From Rhodopirellula sp. SM50 (GTDB lineage Bacteria; Planctomycetota; Planctomycetia; Pirellulales; Pirellulaceae): 64,000 nt of DNA. Position numbers and translations under genes: made by a program. Shown here piece by piece: positions 4,959 to 59,746 of the stretch. The DNA is taken from NCBI RefSeq assembly GCF_002289565.1, contig NZ_NTFY01000081.1, forward strand, positions 1 to 64,000. Direction: 5' to 3'. The notes beneath the pieces are model-generated. The model had not been told where the DNA came from and made no database searches. It saw only the letters and a list, made by a program, of their open reading frames with translations. How positions within the stretch are numbered: the first letter of the stretch is position 1; each line of letters opens with the position of its first letter.

Positions 4959-5589
4959 CGAATTTCGTTTCCGCTATGAAGTCTTTTCGGCGTGTCGATC
5001 AGGAGAAAATCATCTGGGGTCAATCATCTGGGGCAAAGCCGGCCGCCCCAAACATCAGAGGCTCGGAAAAAAGCAGTGGCCGGTGTTCGTCCTCGACGAT
5101 CTCCGTCGCTCTAGATCTTAGCTGGTTCGTTACGGAAAGGGTGGCGGCGAACACCAGCAGAATCACGGGGGCGCAGAATCACGGGGGCGCCGGCGCGAAC
5201 TGACTGATGCCGACGTTTGCCAGCCGTCGGGCGCGGAGCCCCATGCCACCGACATCGCCCCCCACCTGTGTCTTTTTAGCGACAGGCCGCGAGCCCTCCG
5301 GTCGATCAACCTGTTTTCGAGCCGACGGTTTTCGTCGCGCCCGCACTGGGAGCGTGGATCGCGAAAACGGCACGACAAAAGCCCATGACCTGGGGGGACG
5401 TCCGCACCGAAAGAACTGCGACCGGAGGGGTGAATTCAGCCACGCCGGAGGTCCCTGCCGCACGACAATCAGCCCAGTTCGGCCGCTTTGCCGCACTATT
5501 TTCCTGTGCGTGAGTGTAAGTGGCGGACTCGATGCCGTTTAGACGATTTAGCAACTCTCGTGTTTTCGCCTACCTCATCGACCGATTCA
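4959..5589. other. Intergenic region with short tandem duplications, divergent promoters
   Basis: No gene is supported. The region separates the divergent cytochrome-fusion gene and the sigma-factor gene, so promoters for both must lie here. It contains two 12-bp copies of AATCATCTGGGG (about 5008-5035), a 16-bp tandem duplication CAGAATCACGGGGGCG (5158-5189), and a degenerate copy of repeat block B (CGACAGGCCGCGAGCCCTCC, about 5280-5300). Overlapping ORFs on both strands have low-complexity Arg-rich translations. Confidence 0.5.
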
Positions 5590-12639: not shown

Positions 12640-12792
12640 GGGAGAGTGGCAGAACGATGGAAGGCGGGAGGATGGGAGGGAGGTGGGCAAAACGATGGGG
12701 GCAGGACGATGGAAACGATCGGTGGGAAGGCAGAATGATACGGGGCAGAATGATGGGGTGGGGAATGATTGTCGCCCCGTATCATTCTGCCT
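12640..12792. repeat. 14-bp degenerate tandem repeat (GGGGCARAAYGATG) ending in a 19-bp hairpin
   Basis: The spacer between sulfatase 2 and the sialidase-like gene is purine-rich and made of repeated CARAAYGATGG units. It ends in an inverted repeat, 12728-12746 and 12774-12792, with perfect arms. The right arm covers the last codons and the TGA stop (12782-12784) of sulfatase 2. The same 14-bp unit in reverse complement recurs at 17491-17548. Confidence 0.75.
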
Positions 12793-14275: not shown

Positions 14276-15867
14276 TGCACCGCTCTCCCACGAGAAACAA
14301 CCAAACCGAGCGTCACCATCACTGCCGGGCCGAACACGATGACCAGAAACGGGTGGAATGGACTGGCAATCGACTCCAAGGACGACGGCCAATAGGCAGT
14401 TTTGGAAAACGTCATCCAAGCGATCAAGACGACGCCGGCGGTGAGAATCAGAATCGCCGGACGTTCCCGCAGTCTCGGCGAGGTGGTTCCCAACAAAAAC
14501 AGTCCGATGATCGCCGCTCCGAGCACTCCCGACAGCGTCCACCAGATATCCAAGACGCTATTGGTCAAACGCACCAGAATCAACGCCACGATCGTCCCGA
14601 GTGTCCCCCAGACCAACGTCGCCGATCGCAACACGAGCATGCTGGCCTGGTCACTGGAATCGGGCCGCAACAACCGTTTGTAAAAGTCGCTCATTACCAA
14701 TGTTGCCGAAGAATTGAGCCCGGTCGACACGGTGCTCATCGCCGCGGCGAACACGGCCGCGATCAGCAACCCGCGCGCTCCCACCGGCAAATTCGCCGCG
14801 ATGAAATGGGGAAAGACGCGATCGCCCAGGTCGGTTTGCGACAACCCGTCGGCCGTGGTTTGCAATTGATCTTGATAATCAGCGGATTCCGGATCGACAC
14901 CCGCCTGCATCAGCTTTTGACTCGCCACGATGTTTCGCACCGCGTCCATGTCTTCGGGATGATTTTGATAGTGGGCGTACAATGCCGTTCCGATAAACAG
15001 GAACAGCGCGCTAACGGGAACGTACAGCAGCGCCCCCAACCAAATGCTTTTGGCCGCTTCACGATCGCTGCTGGAGGCGATGTAACGTTGGACGTAACTC
15101 TGGTCGATGCCAAAGTTCTTGAGGTTTTCGAACAGCCCGTAGGCCAACACAATCCACAGGGTCGGGGTGGCCCACAGAGTCAACGATCGGCTGCCCAGCG
15201 AAAACTTGCCTTCGGCCGCTGCGACGTCAAACACTTGTCCTGGACCATCGGGCATGCCCATCAACAAGATCACCAACGCCAGCAAGGCACCACCGAGCAA
15301 CACGAAGGCCTGGATCGCATCGGCCCAGATGACCGCCGTGATGCCGCCGATAAAGGAATACGCCGTCACGATCACGCCGGTCACCAAGATCAGCGTGCGA
15401 ATGTCCCAGCCGAATAGGATCGCCATCGGCAAGGCCATCAAGTACATCACCACACCGATGCGGGCGACCTGAAACAACAGGTAAAACGCACTGGCAAACA
15501 AACGGGCCCACAACCCGAACCGGTGTTCCAACAAGGAATACGCGCTGACTTCACCAGACGCCCGGTACATCGGCAAAAAGTACCGCACCGCAATCCAAGC
15601 GGCCGGGGGCAGGGCGAGTGAAAAGGCAAACGCATTCCAATTGTCCACGAACGCCTTTCCGGGCAACGCCAGGTAGCTGATGCTGCTCAGATAAGTCGCA
15701 AAGATCGACATGCCGCACAGCCATCCCGGCAACGACCGCCCGCCCGCGGTGAAGTCGTCGGCCGATTTGTTGCGCCGCCAAAACACCAAACCGATCGCCA
15801 GAATGCCGACGAAGTAAACGATGAGCACGAACCAGTCGATGCCCGTAAAGAAGGTCGCTGCGATCAT
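14272..15867 (-). CDS. Sodium:solute symporter (SSS family)
   Basis: This is a polytopic inner-membrane protein of about 531 aa with 13 or so hydrophobic helices (FVLIVYFVGILAIGLVFW; LILVTGVIVTAYSFIGGITAV; GLLIAAVFAAAMSTVSTGLNS). SSS signatures include DFTAGGRSLPGW and SIFATYLSSISYLALPGKAF. It should import a small organic acid or sugar with Na+. SSS proteins include sialic acid transporters, but specificity cannot be read here. ATG 15867 overlaps the upstream sulfatase stop (TGATG); a GTG at 15870 is the alternative. The 3' end overlaps sulfatase 2 by four bases. Confidence 0.92.
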   Translation of the reverse strand: MIAATFFTGIDWFVLIVYFVGILAIGLVFWRRNKSADDFTAGGRSLPGWLCGMSIFATYLSSISYLALPGKAFVDNWNAFAFSLALPPAAWIAVRYFLPMYRASGEVSAYSLLEHRFGLWARLFASAFYLLFQVARIGVVMYLMALPMAILFGWDIRTLILVTGVIVTAYSFIGGITAVIWADAIQAFVLLGGALLALVILLMGMPDGPGQVFDVAAAEGKFSLGSRSLTLWATPTLWIVLAYGLFENLKNFGIDQSYVQRYIASSSDREAAKSIWLGALLYVPVSALFLFIGTALYAHYQNHPEDMDAVRNIVASQKLMQAGVDPESADYQDQLQTTADGLSQTDLGDRVFPHFIAANLPVGARGLLIAAVFAAAMSTVSTGLNSSATLVMSDFYKRLLRPDSSDQASMLVLRSATLVWGTLGTIVALILVRLTNSVLDIWWTLSGVLGAAIIGLFLLGTTSPRLRERPAILILTAGVVLIAWMTFSKTAYWPSSLESIASPFHPFLVIVFGPAVMVTLGLVVSRGRAVQ

Positions 15868-17312
15868 CACTGTCCTTTCGGCTCCCCCGCCATTGAATTC
15901 AAGACCGCTCGCAACTGAGAAAGATGTTGCTGGTAGTCGCTGTCGTCGGCACGGTTGACCGATTCGGATGGATCCACGTCGTGATCATACAGCTCCACTC
16001 CGATCCGTTCACCGCCGGCCGGTGATCCGTTTTCGCTGGAACGCCATTCGGTGTATCGAAAACGCGGAGTCCGGATACTGTGGCCCATCGCTTTCATCGA
16101 ATTGCCGTAGTAAGACGGACGGGGATGCTGAGTCAGTGCGGCCGGCTTGACCTGCACGGCGTCACCATCGATCAACGGCCGAAGGCTGACACCCTCGGTT
16201 CCGCTCGGTTCGTGCAGACCGCAGAGGTCGGTAATCGTTGGGTAGAGGTCCAGCAATTCCACGATCGCATCGGTCTGCTTCACCGCCACACCCTTCGGCG
16301 GCGCGATGATCAGAGGCACGCGTGCGTCGAGTTCAAAATTGGACGTCTTGCACCACAGCGTGTGATCGCCAAGCTGGAACCCGTGGTCGGACCAGAACAC
16401 GACCAGTGTTCGCTCGGTCAAACCCAAATGATCCAATTCGGCGAGCAGCCGACCAACTTGTGCGTCCATGTAGCTGATCGCGGCAAGGTAACCGTGACGC
16501 AGCTCTTGCTCGTCGTCCTTGCTTAACGTCGCCGGTTTGCTTTTGCCCAACAGTTCCTGACTGTTGTGCCAGGCGATACGCGGCGTCCCGGCCGGCCATT
16601 GCGGGCACTCCGGCTCAGCAATCTCTTCACGATCGTACAGGTCCCAATACTTCTTGGGCGCATTGAACGGCAAATGGGGCTTCCAAAATCCGACCGCCAA
16701 AAAGAACGGCTGTTTCGACGTCGCGCGTTTCCGCAGCGCATCGAGCGCCAGCGTGGTGATCCGGCCATCGAAATAGGCGTCATCGGGCACGTCACGGCAT
16801 TCGCACCGAATCGCGTCGGCGAAATCGCGTGGAAGCTCGCCTTCCACTTGAGGCACATCGTGTCGGTGGGAATCAAAATGCATCACCGCCGGCACGCTCC
16901 AAGATTCCGGATCGCCGTGAATCTCTGTCGCCCAGTTGTGAAAGATCTTGCCGATGTTTTGGGCGAAATAGCCATTCTGTTTGAAATACTGCGGCAGCGT
17001 CACGACGTCGGGAATCGCGTCGCGAAAATGCTTGGTCAAGTTGTACTGGGCCAGGGTGTTCGGCCGCCGACCGGTGAGCAGACTGCTGCGGGAGGGATTG
17101 CAGAGTGCTTGAGCGCAATACGCCCGATCGAATCGAGTGCCCCGCGCGGCCAAACGATCCAGATGCGGCGTCTCGACCAACGGGTGACCATAGCAACCCA
17201 AATCACAGCGCAAATCATCCGCCGCAATGAACAGCACGTTGGGACGATCAACCGCCGCAGCCTGCGACGTGATCGCCAACGTCAACCAAAAGATCAAAAT
17301 TGTTCGAATCAT
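15867..17312 (-). CDS. Sulfatase 3 (iduronate-2-sulfatase-like)
   Basis: The 481-aa exported sulfatase has a signal peptide (MIRTILIFWLTLAITSQAAA). It then shows RPNVLFIAADDLRCDLGCYG and the formylglycine motif C-N-P-S-R at 71-75 (SSLLTGRRPNT). The IDS-type features KPHLPFNAPKKYWDLYD and FWSDHGFQLGDH suggest the iduronate-2-sulfatase-like branch. Substrate is unknown; uronate sulfates are typical for that branch. It is translationally coupled to the SSS gene downstream. Its leader contains a striking heptanucleotide repeat array immediately upstream of the ATG (17321-17484). Confidence 0.92.
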   Translation of the reverse strand: MIRTILIFWLTLAITSQAAAVDRPNVLFIAADDLRCDLGCYGHPLVETPHLDRLAARGTRFDRAYCAQALCNPSRSSLLTGRRPNTLAQYNLTKHFRDAIPDVVTLPQYFKQNGYFAQNIGKIFHNWATEIHGDPESWSVPAVMHFDSHRHDVPQVEGELPRDFADAIRCECRDVPDDAYFDGRITTLALDALRKRATSKQPFFLAVGFWKPHLPFNAPKKYWDLYDREEIAEPECPQWPAGTPRIAWHNSQELLGKSKPATLSKDDEQELRHGYLAAISYMDAQVGRLLAELDHLGLTERTLVVFWSDHGFQLGDHTLWCKTSNFELDARVPLIIAPPKGVAVKQTDAIVELLDLYPTITDLCGLHEPSGTEGVSLRPLIDGDAVQVKPAALTQHPRPSYYGNSMKAMGHSIRTPRFRYTEWRSSENGSPAGGERIGVELYDHDVDPSESVNRADDSDYQQHLSQLRAVLNSMAGEPKGQ

Positions 17313-17320
17313 TGGGGAAG

Positions 17321-17414
17321 GGGTTTTGGGTTTTGGGTTTTGGGTTTTGGGTTTTGGGTTTTGGGTTTTGGGTTTTGGGTTTTGGGTTTTGGGTTTTGGG
17401 TTTTGGGTTTTGGG
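17321..17414 (+). repeat. (GGGTTTT)13 heptanucleotide tandem repeat, potential G-quadruplex
   Basis: Thirteen exact GGGTTTT units plus a terminal GGG occur on the plus strand, starting 9 bp upstream of the sulfatase 3 ATG. Runs of G3 with T4 loops meet the standard intramolecular G-quadruplex pattern. In the minus-strand transcript the leader would read CCCAAAA repeats. The apparent plus-strand ORFs (FWVLGFG repeats) are translation artefacts of the array. Confidence 0.97.
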
Positions 17415-17484
17415 TACTCAGTACTCAGTACTCAGTACTCAGTACTCAGTACTCAGTACTCAGTACTCAATTTCAGATTTCAGA
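17415..17484 (+). repeat. (TACTCAG)7 plus (TTTCAGA)2 heptanucleotide arrays
   Basis: Seven exact TACTCAG units and one TACTCAA follow directly on the GGGTTTT array, then two TTTCAGA units. All three arrays share a 7-bp period, so the region is a mosaic of unrelated heptads in tandem. Confidence 0.95.
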
Positions 17485-17490
17485 TTTCCC

Positions 17491-17548
17491 ATCGTTTTGC
17501 CCCCATCGTTTTGCCCCCATCGTTTTGCCACCCATCGTTTTGCCACCC
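17491..17548 (+). repeat. 14/15-bp tandem repeat ATCGTTTTGCC(A)CCC
   Basis: Two 14-bp units ATCGTTTTGCCCCC and two 15-bp units ATCGTTTTGCCACCC run up to the stop codon of the aldolase gene (TGA at 17552-17550). The reverse-complement unit recurs at 12640-12792 in the same operon. Confidence 0.95.
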
Positions 17549-17549
17549 A

Positions 17550-18515
17550 TCATCCCGTCTTCCCCAACACCCCGATCTCTCTCAGCACTGCCGCGACTTG
17601 TTCGCGTTGTGGGTCGAGGAACCGGTTGAAGGGATCGGCGGGCAGGTCTTCGCAGATGCCGATCAGCGAGAGTGCGGACTTGGTCGCTTTGATGTGTCGC
17701 GAAGCATACTTGCCGATCTCGTAGATCTCTTGGAACTTCAAGATCGTTGCCAAGGCGGCATCGGCTGCGGCGGCGTCACCGGCGACGAGGGCCTTGTAGC
17801 AATCGACAAAGACGCTGGGCAGGACATTGGCGCCTCCGTTGACACCGCCATCGCCTCCCAACGCGATCGCCTGGGGCAACAGGGCTTCCGGGCCGATCAA
17901 GACCTGCCAATCCGTGCGAATTGATTTCAATTGACACAGCTTTTCGAAATACTCCAGGTCCCCGCTGCTGTCCTTGACGCCGATGATCGAGGGGATCTGC
18001 GACAGTCGTTTCAGCGTTTCGATTTCAAACCAGACCTTCGTCAGCCCCGGCATGTTGTAGAGCATCAACGGCAGTGGAATTTTCGGCGTGATACTCTGCA
18101 CGTAGCGTGTCAGTTCGGTTTGACCGGCGGGAAAATAATAAGGCGTCGTCAGCACCGCGGCGTCGGCACCGCATTGGGCGGCATACTCGGCCAGGGTCAC
18201 CGTTTCCACGTAGGCGGTATCGGTCACTCCGACCAGTACCGGCACGCGTCCGCCGACGATGCGAACTGATTCGGCGATCATCTCGCGGCGCAACCGGTAA
18301 CTTAAACTCGGAGCCTCCCCGGTGGTCCCCAAGATGAACACCCCCGCCACGCCGCCGTCGATCACGTGGTCCAACAAACGCTGCAACCCATCGCCGTCCA
18401 ACTCGTCACGTGCCGCCAGCGGTGTGACCAACGGTGGCACGATCCCCTGCAGCGAAATCGGGCTGGAGTCTGGAACCGATTGTCCATTTGCATGATCTGT
18501 CACGACACTTCCCAT
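17550..18515 (-). CDS. Dihydrodipicolinate synthase / N-acetylneuraminate lyase family aldolase
   Basis: The 321-aa class I aldolase has a TIM barrel with GTTGEAPSL at 63-71, the proton-relay Tyr in LMLYNMP (Y153) and the Schiff-base Lys in IGVKDSSGD (K181). The family condenses or cleaves pyruvate with aldehydes; members include DapA, NanA and 2-keto-3-deoxy-sugar aldolases. The position behind a GntR regulator and beside sulfatases, an SSS transporter and a sialidase-like enzyme favours a catabolic lyase over lysine synthesis, but this is inference. The start overlaps the regulator 3' end by 16 bp. The stop abuts a 15-bp repeat array. Confidence 0.88.
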
Positions 18516-44619: not shown

Positions 44620-44764
44620 GTGGGATAGGCTTCCAGCCTGTCGATGCTGAATGGATGAGCCTGGAAGGCTCTCTCACTGAATTGACAGGCTAGAAGCCTA
44701 TCCCACGGGAATTGACAGGCTGGAAGCCTATCCCACGGGGAGGCAAGCTGGAAGCTTACCCCAC
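44620..44764. repeat. Family 1 palindromic repeat cluster between convergent genes
   Basis: It contains GTGGGATAGGCTTCCAGCCTG and two inverted copies GACAGGCTRGAAGCCTATCCCAC. It closes with GCAAGCTGGAAGCTTACCCCAC, ending one base from the S46 peptidase stop (44766-44768). The cluster fills the whole space between the two convergent stops. Confidence 0.9.
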
Positions 44765-46857: not shown

Positions 46858-47112
46858 GTGGGGTAAGCATCTTGCTTGCCTTCCCCGGAAGCGTCAGCTT
46901 CCGAGTGCGCGATTGCAGTGGGGTAAGCATCTTGCTTGCCTTTCCGGAAGCGTCAGCTTCCGAGTGTGCGATTGCGGTGGGGTAAGCATCTTGCTTGCCT
47001 TTCCGGAAGCGTCAGCTTCCGAGCGTGCGATTGCAGTGGGGTAAGCATCTTGCTTGCCTTTCCGGAAGCGTCAGCTTCCGGGGGGGAACGCAAGCTGGAA
47101 GCTTACGCCACT
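46858..47112. repeat. Four 59/60-bp tandem copies of family 1 repeat with terminal inverted copy
   Basis: Units start at 46858, 46918, 46977 and 47036. Each reads GTGGGGTAAGCATCTTGCTT, a TCCGGAAGCGTCAGCTTCCG hairpin and a GCGATTGCA-type tail. The array ends in GCAAGCTGGAAGCTTACGCCAC, which contains the TAA stop of the oxidoreductase gene (47103-47105). Copies differ by one to a few bases. Confidence 0.95.
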
Positions 47113-48684: not shown

Positions 48685-48815
48685 CGGAGGGCTCGCGCCC
48701 TACCGCTAACAAGCATCGGAGGGCTCGCGCCCTACCGCTAACAGGCATCGGAGGGCTCGCGCCCTACCGCTAACAAGAGAAGAACCACCGGAGGGCTTGC
48801 GCCCTACCGCTAACA
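48685..48815. repeat. Four tandem copies of a 27-bp hairpin unit (block B)
   Basis: Copies at 48685, 48717, 48749 and 48789 share CGGAGGGCTCGCGCCCTACC followed by GCTAACA, spaced 32, 32 and 40 bp. Each contains the small palindrome AGGGC-TCGC-GCCCT. Spacers are 5-13 nt and similar, so this is not a CRISPR. Confidence 0.9.
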
Positions 48816-58395: not shown

Positions 58396-59168
58396 TGCAT
58401 CAATCGATCTCTGTCTCGTTGACGCCGTCTGAACTGTCGCCGGAGTGCGATTTGCACCAGGCCTGTTCGATCATCATCGACGTGCTGCGCGCGACCAGCG
58501 TCATGGCGACCGCCGGCCAATCGGGCGTCCGCCGAATGATCACGTGCGACAACATTCACGCCGCGGCTCAGTTCGCCGATCAGGCCGCCATTCGTCCGCT
58601 GCTGTGCGGTGAACGGCATTGCAAACCGATCGATGGTTTTGATCTGGGCAACTCGCCGGCCGAATACACGCCCGAGCGAGTAGCGGACCGCGACCTCGTG
58701 TTGACGACCACCAATGGCACCCGGGCGATTCATGCGGCCATGCGGTCGCGTCGCTTGTTGGCCGCGTCGTTCTTGAACCTCGACGCCACCCTTGCCGCCG
58801 TGCGGTCCGAGCCACACCTGCAAATCGTCTGCGCGGGAACCAATGGTCAGATCAGTTACGAAGACGTCCTGTTGGCCGGTGCCATCGTCGACCGATTGGC
58901 TCCGCCGCAGTCGCAGGGTTCCGAGCCGTCCGGTCACCTCGACGACTCGGCACGCATCGCTTGGAGTGCATGGCGACAGGCCGACGGAAACACGCGATCG
59001 CTGCGGGAATCGCTCGCATACTCGCTGGGTGGGCGCAACTTGATGGCGGCCGGGTACGAGGCGGATCTTGAGCGCTGTGCAAACGTCAGCACGATCGACG
59101 GCATCGTCGAACGCGTCGAGCCGGGGAAAGCGGTGTTTGAGTTCCGGCGGTTAGTGGTTAGTGGTTAG
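58395..59168 (+). CDS. comB: 2-phosphosulfolactate phosphatase family protein
   Basis: The 257-aa protein matches ComB: IIIDVLRATSVMATA near the N-terminus, then LLCGERHCKPIDGFDLGNSP and VLTTTNGTRAI. The family dephosphorylates 2-phosphosulfolactate, a coenzyme M or sulfolactate step; in bacteria the physiological product is less certain. The last codons (LVVSG and TAG) are encoded by the heptanucleotide array GGTTAGT, so the C-terminus and stop derive from the repeat. The symbol is by family similarity. Confidence 0.85.
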   Translation: MHQSISVSLTPSELSPECDLHQACSIIIDVLRATSVMATAGQSGVRRMITCDNIHAAAQFADQAAIRPLLCGERHCKPIDGFDLGNSPAEYTPERVADRDLVLTTTNGTRAIHAAMRSRRLLAASFLNLDATLAAVRSEPHLQIVCAGTNGQISYEDVLLAGAIVDRLAPPQSQGSEPSGHLDDSARIAWSAWRQADGNTRSLRESLAYSLGGRNLMAAGYEADLERCANVSTIDGIVERVEPGKAVFEFRRLVVSG

Positions 59169-59224
59169 TGGTTAGTGGTTAGTGGTTAGTGGTTAGTGGT
59201 TAGTGGTTAGTGGTTAGTGGTTAG
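59149..59224 (+). repeat. (GGTTAGT)10 heptanucleotide tandem repeat over the comB stop
   Basis: Ten exact units plus GGTTAG run from 59149 to 59224. The comB stop codon TAG (59166-59168) is inside the third unit. The period equals that of the 17.3-kb arrays. Confidence 0.97.
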
Positions 59225-59258
59225 CTGGTAGCTGTCACGACGGCGCGCTCTGCGACGC

Positions 59259-59410
59259 CTGCCATGACCCCGGCGGGGTCATCAGCCGTTTGGCGCGAGC
59301 CTACGGGCGTTCTTCGGTCGCTGCCATGACCCCGGCAGGGGTCATCAGCCGTTTGGCGCGAGCCTACGGGCGCTCTTCGGTCGCTGCCATGACCCCGGCG
59401 GGGTCATCAG
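59259..59410. repeat. 62/63-bp direct repeat, 2.4 copies, GACCCCGGCGGGGTC hairpins
   Basis: Copies start at 59259, 59321 and 59384 (partial). Each carries ATGACCCCGGCGGGGTCAT and the ATCAGCCGTTTGGCGCGAGC segment shared with 48532-48613. The rest of 59411-59746 has further repeat-type segments (GCTGACCTCCGGCTAC near 59653, shared with 19545) and no supported gene. Confidence 0.85.
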
Positions 59411-59746
59411 CCAGTAGCCGGAGGTGAGCGCAGCGACACCTCCGGACAGCCGCGCACCCGCCTGACGCGACCCCGAAGGGTGTCGAAGCGAATCGCGTTG
59501 CCCCCGAACCCGGCCAGACGCCGCGCGTGAACGAGCGAACCGATCAACTCTTTCAGTAAGGCAGACTGCAGATCCGCCGGCGAATCCATCCGCTGCGACC
59601 CCGCCGGGGTCGAGACGATTCCGCGACGGCCTTCCCGGAGGTGGCGCTGCGCTGACCTCCGGCTACTCGCTGGCATCCCTTCGGGATACCGGACGGCTCG
59701 CGCCGTTCCGCTAGCTCCTCCCGTCCCGGCCACGACCTCGACCGGA

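Follow-up and report, generated by a model that had tools for sequence, protein, structure and literature searches.

A Heptameric Repeat Tract Between a Dihydrodipicolinate Synthase-Family Gene and a Sulfatase Gene in Stieleria, Probably a Near-Neutral Satellite

INTRODUCTION

Heptamers are over-represented among the repeats of many bacterial genomes, and a single cyanobacterial genome can contain tandem heptanucleotides of several kinds, the STRR sequences. Heptameric satellites are already known from cyanobacteria, Xanthomonas, and Beggiatoaceae, and no description of heptads in planctomycetes appeared among the titles and abstract openings listed from the open-licence PMC literature. In a Stieleria species (genome G000, a 9.8-Mb draft in 146 contigs), a stretch of 64,000 nucleotides, here called the window, carries arrays of three different heptads back to back between an aldolase-family gene and a sulfatase gene, which raises the question of whether such a cascade serves the sulfatase gene, was left by a mobile element, or is a tract of DNA that renews itself.

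THE JUNCTION TRACT AND ITS GENES

The features at the junction are the following:

15867..17312, minus strand, sulfatase with a signal-peptide-like N-terminus (judged by eye), the 3' gene (Pfam PF00884, E 1.6e-49)
17321-17415, minus strand, GGGTTTT array (AAAACCC on the mRNA strand), 13.6 copies, 100% match (Tandem Repeats Finder)
17414-17469, minus strand, GTACTCA array (AGTACTG on the mRNA strand), 8.0 copies, 100% match (Tandem Repeats Finder)
17470-17488, minus strand, ATTTCAG array (AAATCTG on the mRNA strand), 2.7 copies, 100% match (Tandem Repeats Finder)
17488-17551, minus strand, 14/15-bp unit CCCATCGTTTTGCC(A), 4.4 copies, 98% match (Tandem Repeats Finder)
17550..18515, minus strand, dihydrodipicolinate synthase/aldolase family (DHDPS-family), the 5' gene (Pfam PF00701, E 1e-56)

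The three perfect heptad arrays and the 14/15-bp units of the original prediction were recovered by Tandem Repeats Finder; the (TACTCAG)7 and (TTTCAGA)2 of that prediction give the second and third arrays in another phase and slightly under-counted, and the tract ends at 17551, not 17548. As had also been proposed, the tract fills the gap between the two minus-strand genes, which measures 237 bp in G000 from the stop codon of the DHDPS-family gene (whose protein scores under the curated TIGR00674 dapA cut-off) to the ATG of the sulfatase gene. Four ATCGTTTTGCC units of 14/15 bp (to 17551) adjoin the three heptad arrays (17321-17488), and the order on the mRNA strand is (GGCAAAACGATGGG)x4 - (AAATCTG)2.7 - (AGTACTG)8 - AGTACCC - (AAAACCC)13 - CCCCTTCCCCA - ATG. 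With a 7-bp unit in several copies, over-represented and mainly non-coding, the arrays belong to the general class of bacterial heptameric simple sequence repeats.

Each AGTACTG unit contributes one TGA, so that stops fall in all three frames, and the sulfatase-frame codons 5' of the ATG include TGA stops within the AGTACTG part. Since the sulfatase N-terminus starts at the ATG past the array and TGA stops lie 5' of it, a change in copy number is unable to shift the reading frame. A three-frame stop 'firewall' formed by the TGA of ANNNCTGA units was also considered and was rejected as a general role, because the arrays occur in both orientations. No intrinsic terminator was found in the spacer (shuffle mean 0.8), and a simple consensus scan of the spacer gave no sigma-70-like promoter on the genes' strand and one promoter-like match on the opposite strand (shuffle mean 0.2).

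ORTHOLOGOUS SPACERS IN RELATED SPECIES

The DHDPS-sulfatase pair was recognised by sequence reading in 9 of 13 same-genus relatives; a symporter-like sequence instead of a sulfatase lies 3' of the DHDPS gene in G004 and G006, no sulfatase was recognised at that place in G011, and G009 was left out of the comparison. Heptads are present in the spacers of G000 (237 bp), G012 (146 bp), G003 (80 bp), G001 (264 bp), G002 (146 bp), and G013 (195 bp), and the five relatives among these keep the layout with other heptads and other copy numbers, once on the opposite strand. Four more distant Stieleria have short spacers (G008, 33 bp; G005, 36 bp; G007, 44 bp; G010, -4 bp), and retention of the gene pair with spacers of at most 44 bp indicates that the tract is dispensable. 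Even there, heptads occur: a GATTTGA array of 3.9 copies spans the DHDPS stop codon in G008 (L018) and supplies the final codons of that gene, and a two-copy CCCCCTC lies in the 44-bp spacer of G007.

The nearest relative of G000 is G012 (DHDPS identity 96%), and its spacer, which reads AAATTTG x3, AGTACTG, AGTACCC, AAGACCC, AATG, represents an unexpanded form in which AGTACTG and AAAACCC, the units of both long G000 arrays, are connected in a single 7-nt register. The spacer of G003 is a mixture of AAATCTG and AGAACTG, and those of G002 and G013 carry AAACYTG. The differing heptads across orthologous spacers mark the junction heptads as a changing tract, and unit turnover was seen again at two other loci. 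The length variation expected from the original prediction is accordingly strong between species, both at the junction and at these two loci.

PHASE VARIATION, G-QUADRUPLEX AND START-CODON POSITION

Phase-variable expression and a G-quadruplex had both been suggested for the array, and they come together in a cis-regulatory or phase-variation device in which (GGGTTTT)13, through its copy number or a G-quadruplex on the template strand, would tune transcription or translation of the sulfatase gene. Such a device would suit the place of the array, which stops 9 bp 5' of the sulfatase ATG with its G-rich strand as the template strand, and it has a parallel in the G-rich heptads of Xanthomonas and Nostoc, which the available portion of Rehm et al. 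(2015; PMC4692102) describes as over-represented on the non-coding strand in the 50 bp that precede ORFs. The GGGTTTT unit fits the quadruplex pattern on the template strand, with (GGGTTTT)13.6 on the plus strand of G000 supplying the at least four G3 tracts of the Xanthomonas/Nostoc type, and some quadruplex potential exists in four of the six heptad-bearing spacers, on differing strands; in G001, G002, and G013, it comes from the 14-bp units, which match G3x4 loosely, with loops of up to 9, on the mRNA strand. However, the unit is missing from the five other heptad-bearing spacers, the template-strand G3x4 pattern is restricted to G000 among the nine spacers scored, and the abundance and conservation in relatives of the Xanthomonas/Nostoc G-rich units are not found for GGGTTTT, whose sole (GGGTTTT)3 site in the G000 draft genome is the junction array. 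A GGGTTTT quadruplex as a conserved function is ruled out by the orthologous spacers that lack this unit. Phase-variable expression is likewise unsupported, in that the array lies outside the sulfatase reading frame, other arrays stand in both orientations and at varied distances, and the four short-spacer species retain the gene pair; in the text available, Rehm et al. (PMC4692102) considered phase variation unlikely for their own repeats. We regard a regulatory device of this kind as quite unlikely.

A third explanation rests on the position of the heptads immediately 5' of the start codon and on their likeness to the TAACTGA direct repeats described by MacGregor (2015; PMC4679880) in Beggiatoaceae, Cyanobacteria, and Bacteroidetes. 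In the portion of that paper available, these repeats are similarly heptameric, intergenic, and 5' of a start codon, as the tract is at the junction; a single heptad recurs in phyla far apart, there are 'split' sets that include related heptads, and ATAACTG, a rotation of TAACTGA, is one base from AGAACTG. The same source describes one unit, mostly forward and a few nucleotides from the start codon, whereas the units here differ from it and vary freely among species at one site, their orientation elsewhere is mixed, and the distance from heptads to start codon is not constant, and so the tract falls outside the TAACTGA type and this explanation is extremely unlikely.

REGISTER AND STRAND REVERSAL

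The heptads had been called unrelated, which holds in part: GTACTCA and ATTTCAG meet with a 1-base shift, but GGGTTTT and GTACTCA share one 7-nt register at their junction and have intermediates in a relative. In 196 sequences, from Stieleria and elsewhere, the register of abutting arrays of different heptads was scored at 53 junctions, which represent 40 distinct pairs of units. The same register was best or tied-best in 32 of the 40 pairs, with a one-substitution difference in 22, a signal partly due to arrays overlapping by six letters; among the pairs without a 4-6-letter overlap, 7 of 15 are in register, where about two would be expected at one in seven. From their sequence, the GTACTCA and GGGTTTT arrays appear to be one drifting tract and not independent inserts in a string.

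Orthologous arrays can also lie on opposite strands. The mRNA strand of G001 carries ATTTCAG and GTACTCA where that of G000 carries AAATCTG and AGTACTG, the units being reverse complements in an unchanged order, and one simple inversion fails to explain an order that is kept with both units reversed. Similarly, at locus B (L080), CTTGAAA in G012 corresponds to AGTTTCA in G000 and G003, the flanks being shared and the left edge carrying a fold-back sequence, and at locus A (L099), head-to-head arrays are found in G000 and G003. Neighbouring arrays at most 100 bp apart are inverted in 18 of 123 pairs in the 80 AGTACTG loci listed (see below), in 5 of 13 pairs from four other genomes (16 stretches), and in 1 of 6 pairs in the Stieleria samples. 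The opposite-strand orthologous arrays suggest fold-back template switching. Separately, head-to-head heptads (e.g., GAGAATT / AATTCTC) that are 14-37 nt apart and capable of a long hairpin were observed in the Acidobacteria MAG BP6.bin107 (L319, L320).

PERIOD-7 ARRAYS IN THE HOST GENOME AND ITS RELATIVES

Outside the window, 60 stretches of G000 (1,115,630 bp; 54 of them contig starts) were sampled for arrays, defined as a perfect run of at least 11 matches, and compared with one first-order Markov shuffle. Period-7 arrays numbered 15 in the sample and 1 in the shuffle, an enrichment that the original prediction had anticipated. The other periods from 1 to 6 and 8 to 11 gave at most 7 arrays each, which makes period 7 the commonest among periods up to 11, and among these only period 7 reached six or more copies (4 arrays); periods 12, 15, and 16 gave 25, 65, and 37 matches, the criterion demanding fewer copies of long periods. 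Extrapolation to the whole of G000 gives about 130 period-7 arrays. All 19 arrays of the sample and the window lie outside predicted genes, bar overlaps of at most 13 nt, and intergenic DNA makes up 16.4% of the sample. A heptad array lies within 300 bp of the contig start in 3 of the 54 contig starts, so that arrays may break assemblies and may also be over-sampled by contig starts. The window holds a further intergenic array:

59149..59229, no strand assigned, GGTTAGT array, 11.4 copies (Tandem Repeats Finder)

This array is followed about 30 bp on by a 63-bp unit in 2.5 copies (window 59149-59412 together). Other tandem repeats of the window have units of 30 bp (44661-44764), 59 bp (46858-47080), and 32 bp (48685-48777), and elsewhere in G000 a run of about 45 heptads alternates blocks of CAGTACC with blocks of CAGTACT (L287 1207-1523; G000:C46).

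The samples of two relatives yielded one period-7 array each, G012 in 380 kb with the target locus excluded (shuffle 0) and G001 in 400 kb (shuffle also 1), so that the enrichment is clear for G000 alone; G012 and G001 are one-contig genomes, and the heptad arrays in them are therefore no artefact of draft assembly. Of 60 relatives, 18 had a match to a pattern of four ARWNCYG heptads, compared with 6 for the control. Counts that include overlapping matches were 118 in G000, 133 in G001, 92 in G003, 74 in G012, 36 in G013, 1 in G002, and 2 in G004, and none in the seven remaining same-genus genomes. Strand bias relative to replication was also examined, and the GC skew of the samples was too faint for replichore assignment.

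THE 14/15-BP UNIT FAMILY

The four units at the DHDPS end of the spacer belong to GGCARRAYGATGGG, a dispersed repeat of 14-16 bp. Doublets of GGCARRAYGATG match 264 times in G000 and 112 to 495 times in five other species of the clade, with zero control matches; in a search of 40 genomes, the only doublets outside this six-species Stieleria clade were 8 in another genus, the other 33 genomes having none. Single 14/15-bp units are intergenic in 90 of 93 cases in the G000 sample. The 14/15-bp units form their own dispersed family of repeats, separate from the heptads. The suggestion that the unit is close to two 7-bp periods was not borne out, and its composition from two heptads is ruled out by spacings of 13 to 16 and by the restriction of the family to the clade. 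Within 200 bp of a heptad tract, GGCARRANNATG was present in 4 of 13 cases, whereas randomly placed intergenic positions have it 3% of the time. The idea that heptads regularly accompany the family was nevertheless rejected, only 2 of 13 multi-unit clusters having a flanking heptad run. The window contains another cluster of GGCAAAACGATG-type units at 12640-12712, in the opposite orientation to the local genes, and a 16-bp repeat similar to GGCAAAACGATG-type units at 5157-5190.

AN IS4-FAMILY ELEMENT WITH HEPTAD-LIKE ENDS

Two copies of about 1.8 kb in G012 (L052 17230-19048 and L046 3835-5654) encode an identical IS4-family transposase of 464 aa (NCBIfam). A shorter derivative (about 310 bp) that shares their ends lies at L095 13190-13496, three pairs of element ends are 307-309 bp apart, and the end GRAAACGTYAGAGTCAG occurs 8 times in G000, 14 times in G012, and 4 times each in G001 and G003. 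Heptads could have been seeded at, or have been favoured targets of, this element (end GAAAACGTTAGAGTCAG), which would make the junction tract a remnant of it. Four Stieleria genomes supplied 30 distinct element ends, of which 13 lie within 12 nt of the hexamer AAATCT/AGATTT (0.36% for random positions in intergenic DNA) and 22 lie within 20 nt of any of eight heptad-like hexamers (3.3% for such random positions), an enrichment in line with this origin even though some of these ends are orthologous pairs and thus represent fewer than 30 independent events. The orthologues of loci A and B, where the heptads are interrupted by an insert in some species and stand by themselves in others, are also compatible with it. 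However, a true heptad run follows in the next 70 nt in only 13 of 36 element end records (duplicates included), the GAGTCAG/CTGACTC heptads are absent from the sulfatase spacers of the nine species scored, and the 17-nt end pattern, with its 8 occurrences in G000, is far outnumbered by the extrapolated heptad arrays. We therefore judge an element-borne origin of the tract to be unlikely.

HEPTADS ACROSS PHYLA

A search for exact (AGTACTG)3, with one genome per species, gave at least 114 stretches, and the 80 loci listed represent Acidobacteria, Planctomycetes, Chloroflexi, Acidimicrobiia, Bacteroidetes, Cyanobacteria, and others; a reversed control of the pattern had no match in 20 genomes drawn from the listed loci. 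These 80 loci contain 222 period-7 arrays, of which 118 consist of other units, and in four genomes chosen by AGTACTG, stretches away from the listed matches (80 kb each) held 5, 4, 4, and 17 heptad arrays of several units. Among the 88 AGTACTG tracts in the 80 loci listed from other genomes, 16 lie inside ORFs from a simple gene finder, which tells against a strictly intergenic placement, and 13 lie at locus edges; the 35 co-directional tracts divide into 16 sense and 19 antisense, and the distance to the start codon varies. Slippage alone fails to explain the recurrence of AGTACTG in several phyla.

It is conceivable, if very improbable, that the heptad tracts of many phyla form one self-renewing class of DNA set by unit length, which a replication machinery counting seven nucleotides would re-make, with in-register turnover and fold-back reversal. 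CTG or CAG is contained in 20 of 31 distinct units from G000, G001, G012, and four genomes of other phyla (6.9 expected), ACG (0) and AAG (2) being rare among them, and in 14 of 23 units when those near AGTACTG are left aside (4.6 expected). Primers of Escherichia coli DnaG begin on 5'-CTG according to the available portion of PMC5429622, and the excess would, if true, point to lagging-strand priming. The units in these counts are not independent, and in a wider set CTG or CAG occurs in 17 of 40 (10.9 expected), a smaller excess; AAAACCC (G000) and AATCCCG (G044) contain no CTG. These CTG-less units, the smaller excess, and the fact that several of the genomes had been selected for AGTACTG all count against the priming part.

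DISCUSSION

The junction tract is probably a heptameric satellite, near-neutral and renewed by slippage plus fold-back template switching. Observations that agree with this reading are the 7-nt unit, the perfect copies, the intergenic site, and the differences in length and unit among six sister species, together with the short form with intermediate units in the nearest relative and the orthologous arrays on opposite strands. A satellite tract would have grown into the operon-like DHDPS-sulfatase junction, where replication slippage by 7 nt would lengthen or shorten the array. A point change in one unit could then be spread by further in-register slippage, as from AGTACTG to AGTACCC to AAGACCC/AAAACCC, and such a spread would produce a cascade of different heptads, while fold-back template switching would occasionally copy the array in the other orientation. 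At each site, the units may have drifted in place or may have been seeded independently from a pool of heptads found throughout the genome. The tract would be a tolerated spacer with no sequence-specific job for the sulfatase, and with at most a mild effect on gene coupling. The fixed period had been taken to suggest a common replication or repair mechanism, and a shared mechanism that depends on length is reasonable; according to an earlier hypothesis, cited in the available portion of Rehm et al. (2015; PMC4692102), slippage by 7 nt is favoured by how much DNA the polymerase holds.

Several known systems resemble the tract. Like the GGGAATC and GGGGA(C/T)T repeats of Xanthomonas and Nostoc, it is heptameric, intergenic, near ORF ends, and partly capable of forming G-quadruplexes, and in both cases the same gene neighbours in related species enclose repeats of widely varying length and sequence, as the accessible text reports for heptads between the same genes of related Xanthomonas (Rehm et al., 2015; PMC4692102). 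That text describes one dominant G-rich unit type per genome and a preference for four units, whereas here there are many mostly non-G-rich units, cascades within a tract, opposite-strand orthologues, and longer arrays. The STRR of cyanobacteria are similar in having several tandem heptads per genome, although the organisms differ and the likeness lies at the level of description; three heptanucleotides are mentioned for Calothrix in the same portion of PMC4692102. The (GATAGRA)n heptamer satellites of Chloroflexus are likewise scattered in one genome, but belong to a single unit family in the part of PMC6749651 available. Less familiar in the present case are the in-register turnover of units, the strand flips, the recurrence of one heptad across phyla, and the heptad-like ends of the IS4-family element.

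The tract shows unusually clearly how bacterial heptad satellites change. An unexpanded form, intermediates, and expanded and reversed arrays are found at one orthologous site, which makes the mutational steps visible. A single genome is poor ground for calling such arrays regulatory, and the sister-species series supplies concrete sites for measuring 7-nt slippage and bears on the excess of heptamers in bacterial genomes.
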